From: Panorpa germanica
Lineage: Eukaryota; Arthropoda; Insecta; Mecoptera; Panorpidae
Direction of reading: 5' to 3'
Length of the DNA: 64,000 nt
Assembly: GCA_963678705.1 (NCBI GenBank)
Contig: OY783223.1
Location: forward strand, 7,968,721 to 8,032,720
Part shown: piece by piece, positions 5,578-60,240 of the stretch
Position numbering within the stretch: position 1 is the stretch's first letter
Layout of the letters: every line of letters starts with the position of its first letter
Notes under the pieces: generated by a model
Databases searched by the model: none
Seen by the model: only the letters and a program-made list of their open reading frames with translations
What the model was told of the DNA's origin: nothing
Made by a program: the position numbers and the translations under genes

Positions 5578-8125
5578 TAGGCGATTAGTGTATTACATAA
5601 GTTGATAATATTATGCTTTTAAATTAGGTTTTGGGCTACAGTGAATTGATAATTCTTTCACCAGTGAAGACATGCCTTTACTTGAGTCTTCAGTCTAACG
5701 TAAAACCCCATTCCCACTCACTGTTTTTAGTTTTAATTTAAGGTTTTAATCTTAAATGTAATTTTTAACTTGTGAAATTATGCCCCATACGTCAGTAATT
5801 ATTTAATATAAATTATTGTATTTAATATAATTAATTTGATTTCTTTATATTTCACAAGCTGAACTATATCTTTTCTCATAGCAGAATATTATTTTTAATG
5901 AAAAATGAACCCACGTATATTTCAGAACACCTGTTGATAATAGTATTAAACATAAAACAAGAGTGGGGGATGAGAGTATGAGGGGGAGGAAGAGGGTGTG
6001 GGTGCGGGATCGGGTTGTCTGTAGTATGAGGTAAAACGAGGAAAGGATTACCGTTATTTCTCAGCGTGCATTTTATATTATTTAACTTAATTACGATGCA
6101 TTAAAAAACAATAAACTTGGATTTATGTAATTCGTTTGTAGAAGACATTCCGTCTAACAGGGACGGCGTAGGGGCGGGCGCAGGTGCTGTCAAGTAGGCC
6201 ATTGAAGTCAAGCCGGTTTGGGTATAAATAATTTAAGGGTGGTAATTGTAGCTATAAGTTTAGTACGATAGAAAAGTAAGGAACATTTTGGTCAAATCGA
6301 TACAAAAAAGGCATATTTTCGATAATGTTTTCTGACGACACAGTTAACATATAATTATTTCTATAATTACTACATGATAAAATAACATTTAAAGAATACT
6401 TTGTGAAATTTTCATAAATAAATATCAAGAAATGAGGTATTGACAGCGAATCTCCGCTGACGTCACAAAAAAAAGTTGCATTGCGGTGTCCCTCATAACT
6501 CATCACTGGATTATTTAAATTCAAAAAACCAAAATGATTTCATTAGTTGATAAGTTTGATTTTTCAATTTTTTACAGCAGAAAAAAATCAGTAATTGTCT
6601 TATTCTAAAATACGATAAAATTAAAAAAAAAAACTCGATAGCTTTACCTCAGCATTTATGTAAAGAAAGAATGTGCAAAATTTCAAAAGGATCGGTGCAA
6701 TAGATTTTGTGCTAGAGAGGACACCGACTCTGATAAAGCTAAGTGTGAGAAAACGCGTTTAAAAGTTTCAAAGAAAGACGAAACCAGACCAGAGAGGTGA
6801 AGACTTAAAACTCTATATCTCCGACAGTTTTACTCCAACCGATTTCAAATTTTCACACAATAAACTTAATATGTTGTACATTAATATAAAGTGATTTTAC
6901 GAGTGTACTACCTTAATTGTCAAAAACAAAAACGAAAAGTTTAACTTATACTTGTATCACTTTTTGTCAATGAACTTCAAAATTTTTAGAGAATATTAAT
7001 TTACCGACCATTGATGGATAGTGATCATTTAAATTAATTAATTATCGTATTTCAAAAAAATTAATTATTTCCTGCATATTTTCAATTTAATTTGTTCAAA
7101 AAATATGTAGCAATCTTAAAAATATTAATGAGAAACGGATATCGCTTGAAATATATATGTACATTAATCATTTAATCAATCTGATATTATTAACCAATGT
7201 TCCGTTATACGGTGTAGTGATTTTAATAGTTATCATATTTATATTTACCTAATAAATATATAGCATTCAGTGACCTATTTTGATGCTATTAGAATCAAAT
7301 AATAAAGCTTCTTATTTCCATTACTCAAAATCTTTAAGACATGTGACAACGTGTACTACAAATCTGTCTTAAAACAAAATGTCTTACGACCACACGTACA
7401 GAACGAAAACAAATTTGTCTTACGATTTTTCAGTTCCCAAAGAAACGTATGCGATAGACAAAGACAACACCATATAAAAAACACATTGAAGAAATAAAGA
7501 CAACCTATCAATTCTGCCCTAGTTTAATAATATAATAAAAACTAGAGATTACCCCTGTCGCAAGCGACGACTTTCCTTTGTATGTAAATTAAATTTCATT
7601 TAAAATTCCATTTTTTATTTAATTAAAATATTTAACTCGTTCTATATTAATTTTACATATAAGAACAAATAATTTTTCAAATAAACTGACTAAAAATATA
7701 TTTTTTTCAATAAAATGTTTTCAATTTGTGCATTTATTTGACCTACTTTTTTTCAAAACTTGTGATTTTTTTTTCGATTTGTATATTAGATACCAAAGTT
7801 AGCCTATATACAAAATTTCAACTTTCTGGCACATTTTTTACCCTCAGCGCCCTTTTTATAAAATTTTGAAGCTCAGAAGAGCTCACTTTTTTCCAGTTTT
7901 TCCAAAATTACGGGTATCCAGGGAAACCAGGGGAAAATCCGGGAACGCCAAAAGTCTTAGAATTGTTTTCTCTACGAAATAGGAAATTTTCAAAAACATA
8001 GACGGAGCCGTTTTCGCGCTGCCATACAAAATTCAGTACCAAACATATAAGAATATAAATATACACCTGGAACATTAAAATAAGGATAATAAGCCCTCTA
8101 CCTTAGTTAAGCATTCATAGTAGTA
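5578..8125. other. Intergenic or intronic, no gene seen
   Basis: About 2.5 kb without a supportable gene. A purine-rich, G-rich run lies at about 5960-6040 and a CRE-like TGACGTCA near 6459. The open frame on the minus strand at 6252-6524 has no recognisable domain. Confidence 0.4.
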
Positions 8126-37880: not shown

Positions 37881-38401
37881 AATTTAATTTTTTGTCGCCT
37901 GTTTTAACTCTGCATAAAACACCACAGAAGAAATAAGTAATTAAAATTACTTTTCCTTTTCACAACCATCGTGACATATTACTGGAATTATGTAAATTGT
38001 ATATTTAGTTTATTTGTTTAATTGTATATTTATATAAATTATATATATTTATATTTATTATTATTATTATGTATTTTTAAATATATTTGTATGTGTTTAT
38101 ATAAATTTATATGAACAAATACATACGAATATATAATTGTATATGATATATGTATATATGTGTATAATGTGTGAAATATATATTATTCATATTCATTTAT
38201 TGCAGTGCAGAGGTTTGGAGAATTTTTCCCGTGGTGAATATTTGAGTCCAATATCTTCCGGTGTATTCTCAACAATTTGATGGGTTGTCTTAGGCGTATG
38301 AAGGGCATCTGTATGCAGAACCCGCTTTTATCAACTATGGATCGGGTGTGTAGTTCTTACGTTATAATTAGTTATTAATTATAGTTATTATTATTAGTTA
38401 T

Positions 38402-38470
38402 TAATCATATATATGTATATATATATATATATATATAATACATATATATATATATACATATACATAAATT
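38402..38470. repeat. TA microsatellite
   Basis: A run of alternating TA/ATAC units with small interruptions between the third and fourth candidate exons of the non-coding RNA. Confidence 0.8.
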
Positions 38471-38742
38471 TATATAATATTTATATATTATTATTTCATT
38501 GGTTAATGTTATTTCATTGTTACAGGACGAAAGGTGATTATGCGATATTAGTTGGGGCTTTAAAATAAACATAATATGAATATTGTAATTATATATGAAT
38601 AAAAATATACTTATAAAATTTATCCCATCCTATTTATTGTATGCATGTTAATTATTTGTAGGTAGCGGTATTTACTTATCGTAGATCACACAAATGTTTT
38701 GATTTTGTTTTCATATTTTTCAATAAGAGAACCATGTGTTTT

Positions 38743-39005
38743 AGTTCCGGTTTTATATTATAGATGGCTAGCAAAGATTACAACCAGTTGCAGGTTTTAC
38801 AATATAGATGGCACATGTGCTTAGCAAAGATAGCAACCACTGTAGTACCCCTCTCATAATACAGATGGCACTGTTGATTAGTAAAGATCACAACCCGTTA
38901 CAGTTTGGTTCCGGTTTTGTAATATAGATGGCTAAAAATACTTATCCTAGATCGTAACCTTTTATTACCTAGTTCCGATTTAGTAATATAGATGGCGGTA
39001 GTATG
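38743..39005 (+). repeat. Degenerate tandem repeat, about five units of about 55-65 bp
   Basis: Each unit has a TTTxxTAATATAGATGGC block followed by a (T)TAGCAAAGATxxCAACC block. AGATGGC cores occur at about 38764, 38805, 38863, 38925 and 38990. The last unit runs into GAGAACTCGGGG. The units are strongly diverged, so this is an old array. Confidence 0.7.
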
Positions 39006-39164
39006 GTGAAGTGCATCAACAAATATGGCGGCTATTAATAATTTTAATATATAAAGAGAACTCGGGGAAAGAATTATTCAGTGTAGTTTTAGAACTACTC
39101 CAGAAAGGATGGGGGTATACGTCGATTTTTTGTCAATTTTATTAATGAATGAAAATGTTAATAT

Positions 39165-39451
39165 ATGGCACCCGCAGGGTGCCATGGCAAACGCGCAGCG
39201 TTTGCCTAAAGCCCGCGAAGCGGGCTTGGATGCCTCCGGCATCCAATGGCTCCCGAAGGGAGCCATGGCAAACGCGTAGCGTTTGCCTAAGCCCGCGCAG
39301 CGGGCTTGGATGCCTTCGGCATCCAATGGCTCCCGAAGGGAGCCATGGCAATCGCATAGCGATTGCCTATTGTCCGCTCCGCGGACAAATTTAATATATT
39401 GTATATATATAGCGGTACCTTCGGTACCGCTATATATATACAATATATTAA
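39165..39451. repeat. Array of twelve perfect hairpins with 3-nt loops
   Basis: Eleven adjacent GC-rich perfect inverted repeats occupy 39165-39185, 39186-39206, 39209-39227, 39228-39244, 39246-39266, 39267-39287, 39289-39307, 39308-39324, 39326-39346, 39347-39367 and 39370-39388. Stems are 7-9 bp and every loop is exactly 3 nt (GCA, GCA, GAA, TCC, GAA, GTA, GCA, TTC, GAA, ATA, TCC). The twelfth, 39391-39451, is a perfect 29-bp stem with a TTC loop. Hairpins 2-5 are repeated as 6-9. Composition is far from the surrounding 70% AT DNA. Similar GC-rich palindrome clusters are known from organelle genomes of some algae and fungi and from selfish palindromic elements; none is typical for insect nuclear DNA. 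The frames crossing it are by-products of the repeats, not genes. Confidence 0.95.
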
Positions 39452-39547
39452 TCTCGTTAAACGATATTGATTTGTCTATATATAATATATATATACTTTT
39501 ACAAACAACATCATATAAATACAAGTTTTAATTTTATACCAGCAAGA

Positions 39548-39765
39548 GCCACCGTGGCTCAGCGGCTAGCTCGTTGCCCCGTATTCTGTAGGTCCCGCGT
39601 TCAAACCCAAAACCCCGCGCTATAAAATAAAATCTCAATACGTAGCCCCACCCACAGCCACGCCATACACCCCGACCATTATGCAACGACCCCCCCCCCC
39701 TGGTGACACATCCTCCACCCCTTGCTGGAATTAAAAAAAAAACCTTACCTAAATAAAAAAAGAAA
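39548..39765 (+). mobile_element. tRNA-derived SINE (family S2)
   Basis: The head GCCACCGTGGCTCAGCGGCT carries a box A-like TGGCTCAGCGG, and GCGTTCAAACCC at about 39597 is box B-like; a body with a C homopolymer follows, then an A-rich tail at about 39737-39765. The head does not fold as a functional tRNA (no paired acceptor stem at the 3' side), so it is a SINE and not a tRNA gene. Confidence 0.7.
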
Positions 39766-39769
39766 ACAC

Positions 39770-40370
39770 ACTTTTGCTAAATTTTACGAAAAAAAATTAA
39801 TTTTTTTTTTTAAATTTTATTTACATATTACTTTAATACACAAAAACTTATAAAATATATATATTTTTTTTATTTCATTGATGAAGACTTCTTCCAGTAC
39901 CTGAAATTAAAAAAAAAAATGGACTTAGAAAAATCGCATGTCATATGTTTTACTCTCTTTAAGTTTTCTGAATAAATATATTGTCTTTAAGTAAGACCTG
40001 CGTATTCAATACGAATTTTATACATTTAGAGACTATCTTTGTTTGTACAACATTTTCGTAATGACTTTATCTTTCTACGGCAAACAAAGTCCTGTCTAAT
40101 GACTGGGGAGAATTATATTTGAATATTCTGTTTTCAATTTCTTACACTCTTACGTGGGATGAAAATAATATTATAACAAATTAATGAATGCACAGAGGTT
40201 TATTATAATATTCATTTCGCCCCACTTAAGAACACAACAAACTGTTAGACAGACATACATTTTACATTTGGCTAAATAATAACACAGCTTATTGAAAATA
40301 CACACGTAAGCAAGACAAATAATATAAGGCCCTCTCACATTTACGAGTATTTCAGTAGAGTGTAGATTCA
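39770..40370. other. Intergenic, no gene seen
   Basis: AT-rich with A and T homopolymer tracts. No coding signal. Confidence 0.4.
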
Positions 40371-40670
40371 TTAGTCTCACTTGAATGTTTATCAATACAC
40401 CACTGTATCGAAGAAGCTGCATTTCATACGTAAGGCATTCCCTTTATAGTGGTCTTGCACGAATCTGAACAAGGCAACATACAATGCAATACACGTATAA
40501 AAAATAAAGGCAGCACTTGCATCTAAATACGTATAAACCATAAAATGAACTGAAGTTTCTACTTTAATGTTTATCAATATACCACTGTTGTGAAATAATT
40601 CTCAGCTCTTACGTCTGTGATTATATCACAACAGGAATGTATTGATAAACATTAAAGAATCTTCATCTTA
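40371..40670. repeat. Short dispersed repeat in three copies, two forming a foldback
   Basis: TTTAATGTTTATCAATAYACCACTGT occurs at about 40560-40590 and (as CTTGAATGTTTATCAATACA) at about 40380-40410, with an inverted copy at about 40622-40662. The inverted pair 40562-40602 / 40622-40662 would form a stem of about 38 bp with a few mismatches. Another copy is at 19246-19292. Confidence 0.7.
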
Positions 40671-41106
40671 TGATGAAGTATGCTAATGCGAACATTCCAA
40701 ATACCGTACTGAAAAAGACGGAGTCACAAGTAATCGATACCAGTGTAAGAGCAGCCTTAGACTATTCATTCAATATTATTTTTACATATCCAAATACTTG
40801 CAATACATAACAGACTTAAAATACAGTCCGGGGGAAGAATAGGCATAGAACAGAAATATATAATTAATTTTGCCTGAAGTTATTTTCTTCTAAAATACTA
40901 CAGATACTTTACAATCGTTTCACACGGAAAATAAAAATGGACTATAATTAGAAGTGACATATTAAGAAGAAGGGGAAGAGGCATCTCCCATTCATCCCTC
41001 TTTTCACACAAGATTTTAACTATTAAAATTATGTAGGGCATAGTTCGTAACTTATTCGTACTGGCTTCTGAACGGTTCGGCTCAAATAATTAAATTAATA
41101 TGACAA

Positions 41107-41290
41107 CTGATTCCTACCTTTTGCATTATGTAGTATACTGCCTCTTGTAAATTATACTCAACGAGTAGGAGGGTCACAGTGAACTGCCTGGAGCCGCCAT
41201 CGGTGTAGTTCTTGGTGGTAGTAGCAGATATTCTTACATTGCCTCTTCTCAAGCTACATTCTTCTGGGGGAGAACCTTCTACTTTCAAAC
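41107..41290 (-). other. Orphan exon-like open frame, minus strand
   Basis: A GC-richer open frame reads VEGSPPEECSLRRGN, continues through NYTDGGSRQFTVTLLLVEYN and ends at an AAG|GTAGGA donor. It has no ATG of its own and the frame closes just upstream, so it would have to be an internal exon with an acceptor near ACGTAG or CCCCCAG. A possible upstream exon with a donor at about 41730 (AAAG|GTAAAT) carries only short frames. No family recognised; it could equally be an untranslated exon. Confidence 0.3.
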
Positions 41291-41927
41291 ATCTTCGAAT
41301 CTACGTGTTTTCATTTTAAGTCCTGGGAAAAGAAAATTAAATTAATGAACTAATAATGACAAGAAAACATGTTGTCAGCGTAAGCAGATCTGAGAATATA
41401 ATTACAACTAAAGCTTCTAGCAATGATTATAGGGTTTTCTGGGGTTGGCGATATAGCTACACCTTTTGTTTTCAATCTTATATAAGATGACGTATGATTA
41501 TAGAATAATATTTAATAAATTAGAAATTAACAGAGTAACTTTTTGTTTGTATTGGATGTAAAACACTAGCATAAAACATAGAACTAATGATTGAAGATAG
41601 AATTTGTCTCAGACAGTACATAAATGACATTAATAAAAAGTATCTTGGTGATTTTAGATTAGCCACACTCTATCAGTATCTTTAACCATCGGAGGTGCAG
41701 TAAAATTACTATACAATAAAAGAAATTTACCTTTAGCTTTCACAGGTGGGCCATATTTGCTCGCAAGGGGACGAAAGGGTGTCCACAGAAAACATGTTAT
41801 TTTATCTACTACAATGAAATATAACGTTTATACACTTTCACTAATTAATTTACGAGTTAACTTATTTATACGACAGCACAAACATTTAATATTAAAACAA
41901 GGCAAGGCAAGGTGTCCTTATCATTCG

Positions 41928-41962
41928 CCATTAGCGGCCATTATGGCCGCCATATTGGCGAT
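41928..41962. promoter_or_regulatory. GCCAT-rich palindromic promoter-like block
   Basis: Three to four GCCAT/ATGGC cores (YY1/Pho type) within 35 bp, including a perfect 7-bp hairpin GCGGCCA-TTA-TGGCCGC at 41934-41950. Its position upstream of the exon-like frame suggests a start region on the minus strand. Function is inferred. Confidence 0.4.
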
Positions 41963-42509
41963 GTTATTATAGATATCTATATTACCAGCATTGTCATAAA
42001 AGTTTATGATTTATATAACAGATGGCACCCCCAAAAGTAATTTGACATTTGTCAGCTTCATTATAAATTCAAAAGTCAATAAACTTTTACACGTAAAAAT
42101 GAAATATAAATTTTCTTAATAATTTGTAAAATATTTTTAATCACTTATTTATAAAGAATACATACAAATGGGGGCCCTATAAAAATATTCTACATTTTAT
42201 ATAAAGAACTATATCTAAAATATGTACATCTTTATGAAATTTGTAAGGGTGAACCAGGTATGTAAGAGTATATTAAAAAAAAAACACTTAAAAAAAATTA
42301 TATAATAATTCATAAATAAGATGTTGAAAAAAAAACTTAATAATAAAAAAATTAGACTTAATAAATGATACTTTTTATGTGAAATTTATTGACTTTTATG
42401 TAAAAGATTTAATGAATTCTTAATAGTTTGTTTATCTTTTATCCAATAAAGACCAGTCGCGTCTTCCTAACCTAGTTCCTAAATTATCACCATTGCTTCT
42501 TTCGCCTTC

Positions 42510-58647: not shown

Positions 58648-60240
58648 TTATGAAACAGGCATATGTATCTTTTGCCTTAATAAATCTTCTTGTTTTAACC
58701 ATTTTTGAATTTGGCGCCTGTGAATATTATATTTATTAGCAACTGCGCGTTGATTACCACGGCAAGTCATATCATGATAATAACTATCAATGGCCGATAG
58801 TTTAAAACCTATACTATAACTTTGTCTCTGTCGCACTGATGGTAATATAAGGCCACTTGTATCACATTCCATTGTTTTATATATTGGTACAGTCATCGAG
58901 AGTGAAAGGGATGCAGAGTCATCTTCACTGGGACTGTTTGAACGTATACTATCATACGTTGGTGAATGTATTGGTCGTATATGCTGCCAATTCATATCGG
59001 AACCGCCGTAACCAGTCGAATGATATCGATATCTAACTATTGCCTCATTGTAGTACTCATAATTGTACGTATATAAGTTATTATTGTTTGAAATACTATT
59101 ATGCCACACGTAAGCATCTTTGTCACATGTTGTATTAAATGAATGTGACGTCACGTCACTATCATACGATGAGTTCCTAGAATATATTGTGGCAGCCATA
59201 TTGTCTGTTGTATTATGAATTTCCTCTGTATGTGTAGGTCTAGGTGTAGGTGTTGTTACCTTTTCCTCTTGCTCTCTGTCATCAAATAAAAGATACGGCT
59301 TAAATAGCTTTACAGTTTTATTTGGAGGGGGGCCATCGTTTTCATCGTTGCAGGTGCGTACTGTGTTTTCACTAGTACTGGAGACTTCTGATTTAGGGGT
59401 GCATGTTTTATCACAGGTATCAGGCACACGTACTACAGGCACTACAGGGGGTTCTATAGATTCATTCACGAATAATCCTGTCGACGGACTATATGTAAAA
59501 TGTTCGTAATATTTACGCTTCCGACACGAAAGATCCCACACTTCTAAATCTTGATCTTGTGGTGGTGTGTGTAATGTTGGAAGACAGAATTGGCTTTCAA
59601 AACCACAGGTTTGCGTTGATACAGGAATAGACGTTATGTCATTCATATCTAATAATGGCTTTTTAAAAGATAAGTCGATGGGTTCATGATTTACAAAACA
59701 CTTGGCTTCGCTTATGCTTGATGTTTCCGAGTCACATAATTTATTCCTGTCATGTGTTGAGAAGTCTAGCGCCTGCGCACTTAATCCTGTATTTACGGAG
59801 AACGAACAAAGGGTCGAAGATGTTGGTGATGATGGAGGGGTATTCGGTGCCAGAGGGGAAAGCTTCCAGGAATCACACATTCCGCTCTCCGAGCAGATAA
59901 CACTTGTGTACGCGCTGAGACCCGCGTCGCCCTGTCTACCAGAGTCCAAGGTCATACGACGTGAGCTCTCGTTCATACCACATACTTGTCCACTCTTACT
60001 AACAGTCGTTCTTAAATTATTTTCCACCTGAAGCCACTTTTGTATTTGTCTACGATGAATTCCATATTTTCTAGCTGTAGCACGTTGATTTCCTTTACAA
60101 TCTGAATCTTGACGATATGAATCTAACACTTGTAGCTTAAATTGAGGCGTAAAAATCCTTCGCGAACCCATTTTAGTCGCATCTCCTCGAGGTTTTGGCT
60201 CAAGCTGTCGCTTTACTATCGAGTTTAAACCATTTGCCAT
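58648..60240 (-). CDS. brk: Brinker, Dpp/BMP pathway transcriptional repressor with two DNA-binding domains
   Basis: Single exon, 530 aa from the ATG at 60240. Brinker represses BMP target genes and is itself switched off by BMP signalling (established in Drosophila). The N-terminal homeodomain-like Brinker domain at 27-77 carries RRIFTPQFKLQVLDSYR, CKGNQRATARKYGIHRRQIQ and the KWL end, almost identical to Drosophila Brk. Repression motifs follow: PIDLS at 187-191 (CtBP-binding PxDLS) and FKPY at 313-316 (Groucho-binding). A second Brinker-type domain at 472-522, at the extreme C-terminus, is 30/51 identical to the first and keeps NQRA and NIHRRQIQKWL. The Drosophila protein is known for one such domain, so the second is notable. 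The gene stands alone in a gene-poor region, typical for a developmental regulator. Confidence 0.95.
   Translation of the reverse strand: MANGLNSIVKRQLEPKPRGDATKMGSRRIFTPQFKLQVLDSYRQDSDCKGNQRATARKYGIHRRQIQKWLQVENNLRTTVSKSGQVCGMNESSRRMTLDSGRQGDAGLSAYTSVICSESGMCDSWKLSPLAPNTPPSSPTSSTLCSFSVNTGLSAQALDFSTHDRNKLCDSETSSISEAKCFVNHEPIDLSFKKPLLDMNDITSIPVSTQTCGFESQFCLPTLHTPPQDQDLEVWDLSCRKRKYYEHFTYSPSTGLFVNESIEPPVVPVVRVPDTCDKTCTPKSEVSSTSENTVRTCNDENDGPPPNKTVKLFKPYLLFDDREQEEKVTTPTPRPTHTEEIHNTTDNMAATIYSRNSSYDSDVTSHSFNTTCDKDAYVWHNSISNNNNLYTYNYEYYNEAIVRYRYHSTGYGGSDMNWQHIRPIHSPTYDSIRSNSPSEDDSASLSLSMTVPIYKTMECDTSGLILPSVRQRQSYSIGFKLSAIDSYYHDMTCRGNQRAVANKYNIHRRQIQKWLKQEDLLRQKIHMPVS

Follow-up and report, generated by a model that had tools for sequence, protein, structure and literature searches.

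A dispersed nuclear family of perfect hairpin arrays with three-base loops behind a predicted promoter in Panorpa germanica

Introduction

What is a tight run of perfect GC-rich hairpins, every one with a loop of exactly three bases, doing in an AT-rich insect chromosome? Such an array lies within a 64,000-nucleotide stretch (the window, analysed here in full) of contig OY783223.1 of Panorpa germanica (GCA_963678705.1, positions 7,968,721–8,032,720). This contig, C20 below, measures 10.1 Mb in an assembly of 464 Mb and 249 contigs. A first-pass annotation of the locus had offered four explanations: a selfish palindromic element, an insertion of organelle or symbiont DNA, a structured RNA, or an assembly artefact. 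Descriptions of this hairpin-array family were absent from the top matches in the open-access literature. We analysed the window array together with related loci (L numbers) on other contigs (C numbers).

Results

The block at 39165–39451 comprises eleven perfect GC-rich hairpins and a twelfth of 61 nt, all with 3-nt loops. On the plus strand, hairpins 1–11 occupy 39165–39185 (9-bp stem, loop GCA), 39186–39206 (9 bp, GCA), 39209–39227 (8 bp, GAA), 39226–39246 (9 bp, TCC), 39246–39266 (9 bp, GAA), 39267–39287 (9 bp, GTA), 39289–39307 (8 bp, GCA), 39306–39326 (9 bp, TTC), 39326–39346 (9 bp, GAA), 39347–39367 (9 bp, ATA) and 39370–39388 (8 bp, TCC), followed by the terminal hairpin at 39391–39451 (29 bp, TTC). 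At full stem length neighbours touch or overlap by 1–2 bases; elsewhere they are 0–2 bases apart. The first-pass description of twelve perfect hairpins with uniform loops, eleven closely spaced before a longer one, is therefore borne out by coordinates, stems and shuffle controls alike. It had not recorded three further features: an 80-bp super-repeat, in which 2.5 copies of a four-hairpin unit span 39165–39369 (+), a promoter-like block at 39048–39098, and many copies elsewhere in the genome.

Twelve hairpins in the 64-kb window combine a 3-nt loop, a stem of at least 8 bp and at least 50% GC in the inner 19 nt, and every one falls inside the block. The same criteria returned none in 60 dinucleotide shuffles of the window and at most one in 2000 shuffles of the block, ruling out a chance origin. 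Fold z-scores for 39157–39453 were −20.3 as DNA and −18.6 as RNA. Outside the array, an isolated GC-rich 7-bp hairpin, GCGGCCA-TTA-TGGCCGC (41934–41950), is the only other one in the window with a 3-nt loop and GC of at least 50%.

A search of the block against the whole assembly, as the first-pass annotation had advised, gave 30 matches and hence a dispersed family. The window array is one copy of a dispersed nuclear repeat family and not an artefact. The hairpin TAGTCGCC-NNN-GGCGACTA, taken from related copies and absent from the window's own array, occurs at 124 exact genomic places, and GCAATCGC-NNN-GCGATTGC at 103; the reversed control of each gave 0. We studied 44 arrays (31 first, then 13 among 20 further promoter copies) spread over 15 chromosomes of this one assembly. 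Hairpins are hard templates and the newest differences sit in loops, as an assembly or sequencing artefact would predict; the 44 arrays at different places on 15 chromosomes, with ordered, family-specific changes of both arms and conserved flanks, make that explanation very unlikely.

Many arrays are built from repeats of a unit that comprises four or five types of stem, with five-hairpin units of ~116 bp in other copies as against the 80-bp four-hairpin unit of the window. Among the first 25 arrays, 15 start with a 16–17-bp AT-rich hairpin that the window copy lacks, and 20 carry a long terminal hairpin (20–29 bp). Array size ranges from 2 to 25 hairpins, with 19–584 bp between first and last centre (43 arrays), which sets these 43 apart from the long head-to-tail arrays of satellite DNA, usually at least kilobases in length.

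Several conventional identities were considered for the array. Stems of 8–9 bp with 3-nt loops differ from the ~22-bp stems, precursor-like loops and family match of a miRNA cluster, and Rfam miRNA matches to the 29-bp terminal hairpin all scored far under their gathering scores. No Rfam family exceeded its gathering score in the window, and in 20 loci the sole match was a U2 fragment outside the array, a truncated U2 snRNA-like sequence at L022:3587-3660 (+; RF00004, 56.8 bits), ~310 bp from the hairpins. Downstream, a tRNA-like stretch (39546–39608, +) contains an A-box-like motif (39555–39565) and a degenerate B-box-like motif (39599–39607). Internal A and B boxes in a tRNA-like head, with a 3' tail and target-site duplication, are the marks of a SINE; close matches to the stretch stand beside 13 of 31 arrays, the array being upstream of the stretch and not inside it. 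Neither ARAGORN nor Rfam detected a tRNA in the window, and these searches rule out the array as a tRNA or an Rfam family. A mechanical 148-aa minus-strand ORF spans the array (39078–39524), and similar ORFs span other copies. As the 80- and 116-bp units are not multiples of three, protein coding was rejected and the array is considered non-coding; array-crossing ORFs are taken as probable by-products of GC-rich, stop-poor hairpins.

Upstream of the array lies a plus-strand block consisting of a TATA box (TATATAAAG, 39048–39056; TATAAA at −30 from the initiator A), an initiator TCAGTG (39078–39083; start predicted at 39080 from sequence) and a leader hairpin GTAGTT-TTAG-AACTAC (39083–39098). 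TATA and TCAGT are insect Pol II core-promoter motifs, and the block has the TATA at about −30 and the TCAGT initiator of a Pol II promoter unit. The promoter-leader motif TCAGTGTAGNNTTAGNNCTACTNNAG, with at most one mismatch, occurs at 60 genomic places (34 forward, 26 reverse; reversed control 0). Alignment of 17 left flanks showed two conserved islands, TATATA and TCAGTGTAG..TTAG..CTACT, within poorly conserved DNA. Among copies found by their initiator-leader, TATA starts −32 to −29 from the A of TCAGTG in 30/30 and within −36 to −24 in 19 of 20 others (exception L070); from TATA start to initiator A the distance is almost constant at 31–32 nt. Compared pairwise, 23 distinct copies differ at 17% of sites in the TATA segment, at 46% in the filler that separates it from the initiator, and at 4% from the initiator to +19, the last value being biased because the motif served to find the copies. 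The centre of the first array hairpin falls at about +92 to +98 or +125 to +130 from the initiator. Leader hairpins show paired changes (GTAGC(G)..GCTAC, GTAGTT..AACTAC and GTAGTG-TTAG-CACTAC) and one one-sided change, GTAGTT..TACTAC in L009. From these features we infer that the TATA-TCAGTG block may act as a promoter, and conservation of promoter and leader suggests that transcription matters.

This brings in the main rival of folding as DNA, in which the array forms the body of a structured non-coding RNA transcribed by Pol II, for example one that offers many binding sites to a protein recognising triloop hairpins, with stems and C-GNA-G loops under RNA selection. It draws on the TATA–initiator spacing, held while the filler diverged, and on the conserved leader with its compensated hairpin; the lack of any Rfam family and the range of hairpin number from 2 to 25 speak against it.

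Promoter and array are not strictly tied. Among the 50 of 60 promoter copies examined, 43 have an array and 7 have none; conversely, the block (TATA, initiator and leader) precedes 43 of 44 arrays, the exception, L046, having no promoter motif in 2.4 kb. Since 7/50 copies do without it, the promoter unit does not depend on the array, and the two are separable. Splitting the 60 leaders by hand gave 44 of C type (GTAGCG.., one GTAGCA..) and 16 of T type. All 40 C-type copies examined have hairpins (just 2 in one copy, just 3 in another), and the ten T-type copies examined include three with arrays (the window, L009 and L015) and seven without, in ~0.5–0.9 kb read; where read, the bodies of these seven are other repeats. 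Another repeat (GGCCCCACCCACGTCTGCTCGTCCACACCCTTACTCC..), in either orientation, stands behind the leader in L061, L062, L064, L068 and L069, and also beside the arrays of L013, L037, L042 and L046.

The promoter block also bears on foreign origin. GC-rich hairpins in AT-rich DNA resemble those of organelles, and sponge mitochondria likewise have fixed stems and variable loops (PMC2800124). Dozens of nuclear copies that carry a promoter block of Pol II type argue against a nuclear insertion of organelle, algal, fungal or bacterial origin. For a two-hairpin pattern from related copies, which the window's own array does not contain, neither viral contigs nor 84,980 prokaryote genomes held an exact match, and the window block gave 0 matches in phage records; prokaryote, phage or viral origin is ruled out by these searches. 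An insertion, which the first-pass annotation had listed, is thus scarcely credible: the copies are nuclear and 43 of 44 arrays follow the promoter block.

Copies lie on chromosomes of 10–48 Mb and not in a mitochondrial or plastid genome, some beside nuclear genes. A scaffold end is no more than 150 kb away for 13 of the 44 C-type copies (40 seen with arrays) and no more than 1.5 Mb away for 32. Random placement of 45 places on 16 chromosomes gave 0.6 and 6.2, with maxima of 6 and 19 in 3000 draws. For the 16 T-type copies the counts are 1 and 2. Of the C-type copies less than 1.5 Mb from an end, C20 excluded, 22 point away from it and 9 toward it. Copies run through the middle of C20 itself. 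Since the sequence at the start of C21, 4.7 kb from one copy, is ordinary and has no telomere repeats, "near chromosome ends" must be read in terms of the assembly.

A unit of ~5.4 kb with an array is common to C7 and C2 and has different neighbours, a SOCS gene on one side in C7 and CPSF2 on one side in C2; it therefore moves or is duplicated as a block. This is what a non-autonomous transposon would do, with the hairpins as recognition or packaging sites of a transposition machinery, and the 60 promoter copies and the different bodies headed by one promoter-leader fit as well. Such an origin is nonetheless improbable: self-comparison of the C7/C2 unit revealed no terminal inverted repeat and inspection by eye no target-site duplication, the two marks of a DNA transposon or MITE, an unsystematic look recognised no transposase or reverse transcriptase, and the length of the shared stretch varies between copies. 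Terminal inverted repeats had at first been suspected and were unconfirmed in the units checked. The selfish palindromic element of the first-pass annotation survives in modified form only, as a dispersed family with many copies. Long inverted repeats occur near the unit in L010 and L013, and L026:4774-5933 and 5881-6201 are tandem copies, ~1.1 kb apart, of the upstream flank of a C1 unit.

The window copy belongs to a wider repeat unit, a stretch (38184–42119, +) shared piecewise with related C20 copies: L009 shares 38184–39887, and L010–L012 share pieces from about 38406–38563 to 42119 (42167 in L012). Repeats of ..ATATAGATGGC.. at 38740–38998 (+), a motif also upstream of other copies, might, as a guess, be enhancer-like. 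A long imperfect hairpin (CTTTAATGTTTATCAATA..TATTGATAAACATTAAAG) lies at 40563–40656, and 40560–41045 around it is ~84–92% identical across many wider-unit copies. Exon-like fragments of a multi-copy gene (38208–38345 and 38530–38568; ..SPISSGVFST.., KGDYAILVGALK*) lie upstream of the array; they are broken in the window, related ones are inverted on the far side in L010–L012, and the peptide-like fragments had no Pfam match. Elsewhere in the window, a 530-aa ORF (58648–60240, −) has Brinker-type DNA-binding stretches near both ends as read from its sequence; among the 120 matches listed, the named relatives aligned over 95–99% of its length are beetles, at 30–34% identity.

The 43 promoter-linked arrays contain 503 hairpins with a perfect inner 7-bp stem and 31 with one mismatch, counts that leave out hairpins below 45% GC and are not independent, because the copies are related. 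The closing pair is C-G in 503/503, the pair that belongs to d(C-GNA-G) mini-hairpins. Loops are GNA in 270 (GAA 134, GTA 61, GCA 38, GGA 37), TNC in 111, ANA in 60, TNT in 34 and other in 28, so that GNA or its complement TNC makes up 381/503. UNCG or GNRA RNA tetraloops were considered and, by our own reasoning, do not fit the register. On the sense strand, GNA/ANA (330/503) outnumber TNC/TNT (145), a point in favour of the structured RNA, with the 145 weakening the idea of strand-specific GNA loops. A single C-to-T change at the loop cytosine, on either strand, would yield ANA and TNT. Loops of this C-to-T type number 94 (ANA + TNT), versus 4 hairpins with the equivalent change at the closing pair. 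General CpG methylation explains these loops poorly, since CpG is not depleted in the window (ratio 0.93).

Divergence was compared across hairpin parts. Pooled over seven groups, where pairs within a group are interdependent and alignment error contributes to the flank values, differing sites amounted to 59/4966 in stems (1.2%), 53/1047 in spacers (5.1%) and 1375/20378 in flanks (6.7%); the three loop bases, in order, differed at 28/227, 55/227 (middle, 24%) and 16/228. Stems are slower than flanks in four of the seven groups (G1, G2, G3 and G5), as RNA selection would have it, and not in G4 (32/759 vs 99/2586), G4b (1/252 vs 3/876) or G6 (5/428 vs 11/849). Four nearly identical pairs, picked as the closest at hand, differ at 9/162 loop sites and at 2/2694 of all other sites (odds ratio 79, p 2e-10), making loop change ~75 times commoner than change elsewhere; the 9 sites reflect fewer events, some lying within one loop. 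A position-matched hairpin list for these pairs holds just 3 changed loops, the remaining differences being shifted by small length differences or sitting in hairpins whose stem is not perfect in one of the two copies. Loop hypermutation of this kind could be mimicked by assembly errors that gather at hairpin loops. Reverse-complement flips make up 1 of 84 pairwise loop differences, a count that does not support loop flipping as the main process.

Arms change together. The terminal hairpin, aligned in 20 copies (9 distinct rows, five sequence families), keeps its TTC loop in 20/20. Of its 29 pairs, 18 are invariant, 9 have changed on both sides and 2 deviate by unpaired cells alone; none of the pairs in these 20 copies varies on one side alone by a standard pair. 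Cells changed on both sides number 24, compared with 8.0 in shuffles (0/500 reach 24). Nearly all shuffles fall short of the observed value in four of five covariation measures; the fifth, the number of pair types, lies within their range (11 vs 9.2; 74/500 reach 11). Both arms are one base short in L022 and L024, a paired 1-bp deletion, and L029 and L031 have one unpaired position. Arm mismatches within arrays (n = 31) show no wobble bias, with 6 G.T and 14 A.C, eight of the latter at position 7 and six of these eight a single inherited change in one subfamily. In L010–L012, an orphan arm without a partner has a different sequence in each copy, and the paired hairpin of that type does not vary among the three copies.

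These patterns weigh on the structured RNA. Tolerance at the RNA level would favour G.U, and the arrays show no G-U excess; nor does the terminal stem show any one-sided standard-pair change. A matched long AT-rich stem with a paired deletion also exceeds what RNA selection needs. We therefore regard an RNA under selection as possible but rather doubtful as the explanation of the array, and the corresponding first-pass proposal stays alive in modified form only.

Discussion

The explanation we propose, and hold at about even confidence, is a family of dispersed promoter-bearing non-coding repeats whose arrays fold as DNA in vivo, with arms corrected and loops exposed. Single strands exposed in transcription or replication would allow the array to fold into C-GNA-G DNA hairpins or cruciforms in vivo. 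One arm would then serve as template or mismatch partner of the other, so that the two would be corrected or converted together, and the unpaired 3-nt loops, open to damage (most visibly C-to-T), would hypermutate. As only well-folding hairpins (C-GNA-G) would stay perfect, the motif would be self-maintaining. Arrays may grow by tandem duplication of 80- or ~116-bp units, and whole units may spread by duplication or transposition, mainly among chromosome ends. DNA folding would account for the perfect arms, the paired changes including the deletion, the missing wobble and the decay of the orphan arm, as well as for the C-to-T trend in loops and the contrast between loop and closing pair.

Arm-to-arm correction alone explains neither the slow stem groups nor the difference between groups; low stem divergence in four groups means that selection or conversion between loci is also needed. 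DNA folding and selection on transcribed RNA may both act. That template switching can bring about compensatory change is already an accepted idea, set out in a 2022 study by Monttinen and Loytynoja (PMC8794818), and template switching could produce the observed pattern. The hairpin mutations of that study are alike in their paired arm changes and perfect stems. They represent a mutation process, however, not an element, and loops are conserved there, whereas here they are the fastest sites (PMC8794818). Loop inversion was sought there as the strongest sign (PMC8794818), and template switching between strands has no clearer fingerprint; the near-absence of such inversions here counts against the mechanism, and DNA folding does not explain the rarity of loop flips.

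None of the other known systems compared matches this family as a member either. Organelle hairpin elements (sponge RHE, Allomyces double hairpins, yeast GC clusters and chlamydomonadalean palindromes) are likewise short, often GC-rich dispersed palindromes, and accounts of the sponge elements note conserved stems and variable loops (PMC2800124, PMC7235400), as in the stems (59/4966) and middle loop bases (55/227) here. Unlike them, the present family is nuclear, forms ordered arrays of about five stem types behind a promoter and leader, and has 3-nt loops that are mostly GNA. The likeness to organelle clusters drawn in the first-pass annotation is real as an analogy of form, in fixed stems and variable loops. 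Tribolium satellite DNA with dyad symmetries also belongs to the nuclear repeats of insects that can form hairpins (PMC13081366); it consists of multi-megabase pericentromeric satellites whose symmetries reach tens of kilobases, whereas the present arrays are short and promoter-led. According to a 2026 survey, perfect inverted repeats of eukaryotes are mostly spacer-less and those are AT-rich (PMC13155455), the opposite of the pattern found here.

The loop motif is shared with d(C-GNA-G) hairpins, described as extraordinarily stable DNA mini-hairpins (PMC6479982, citing Yoshizawa 1997); the same source ranks GNA triloops as very stable and GAA above GTA. Those hairpins were studied as short oligonucleotides, whereas the Panorpa genome holds hundreds of copies. 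APOBEC3A hotspots lie in 3-nt loops, and a TTC triloop with a changed 3' C is named as a preferred substrate in PMC10948877; that deaminase was studied in human tumours, and the present likeness is confined to loop geometry and C-to-T direction. With respect to the mini-hairpins, the family is set apart by number: we know of no case in which they occur as hundreds of genomic copies.

A bolder reading, which we advance tentatively as a possibility, would make the family a novel type of nuclear element, in which a promoter-driven unit near chromosome ends carries a DNA hairpin array that perfects itself and in which folding is inherited in its own right, rather than any protein code or RNA sequence. 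Each round of transcription or replication would fold the array, copy arm onto arm and leave a hypermutable three-base tip. Do DNA hairpins or cruciforms form in the chromosomes of living animals, and what keeps perfect palindromes perfect? On both questions this genome provides hundreds of related hairpins along with internal controls: paired against orphan arms, loops against stems, and promoter units with and without arrays. If the explanation is true, the loops would naturally record the exposure of DNA as single strands, and the arms would serve as a natural assay for correction templated by hairpins.
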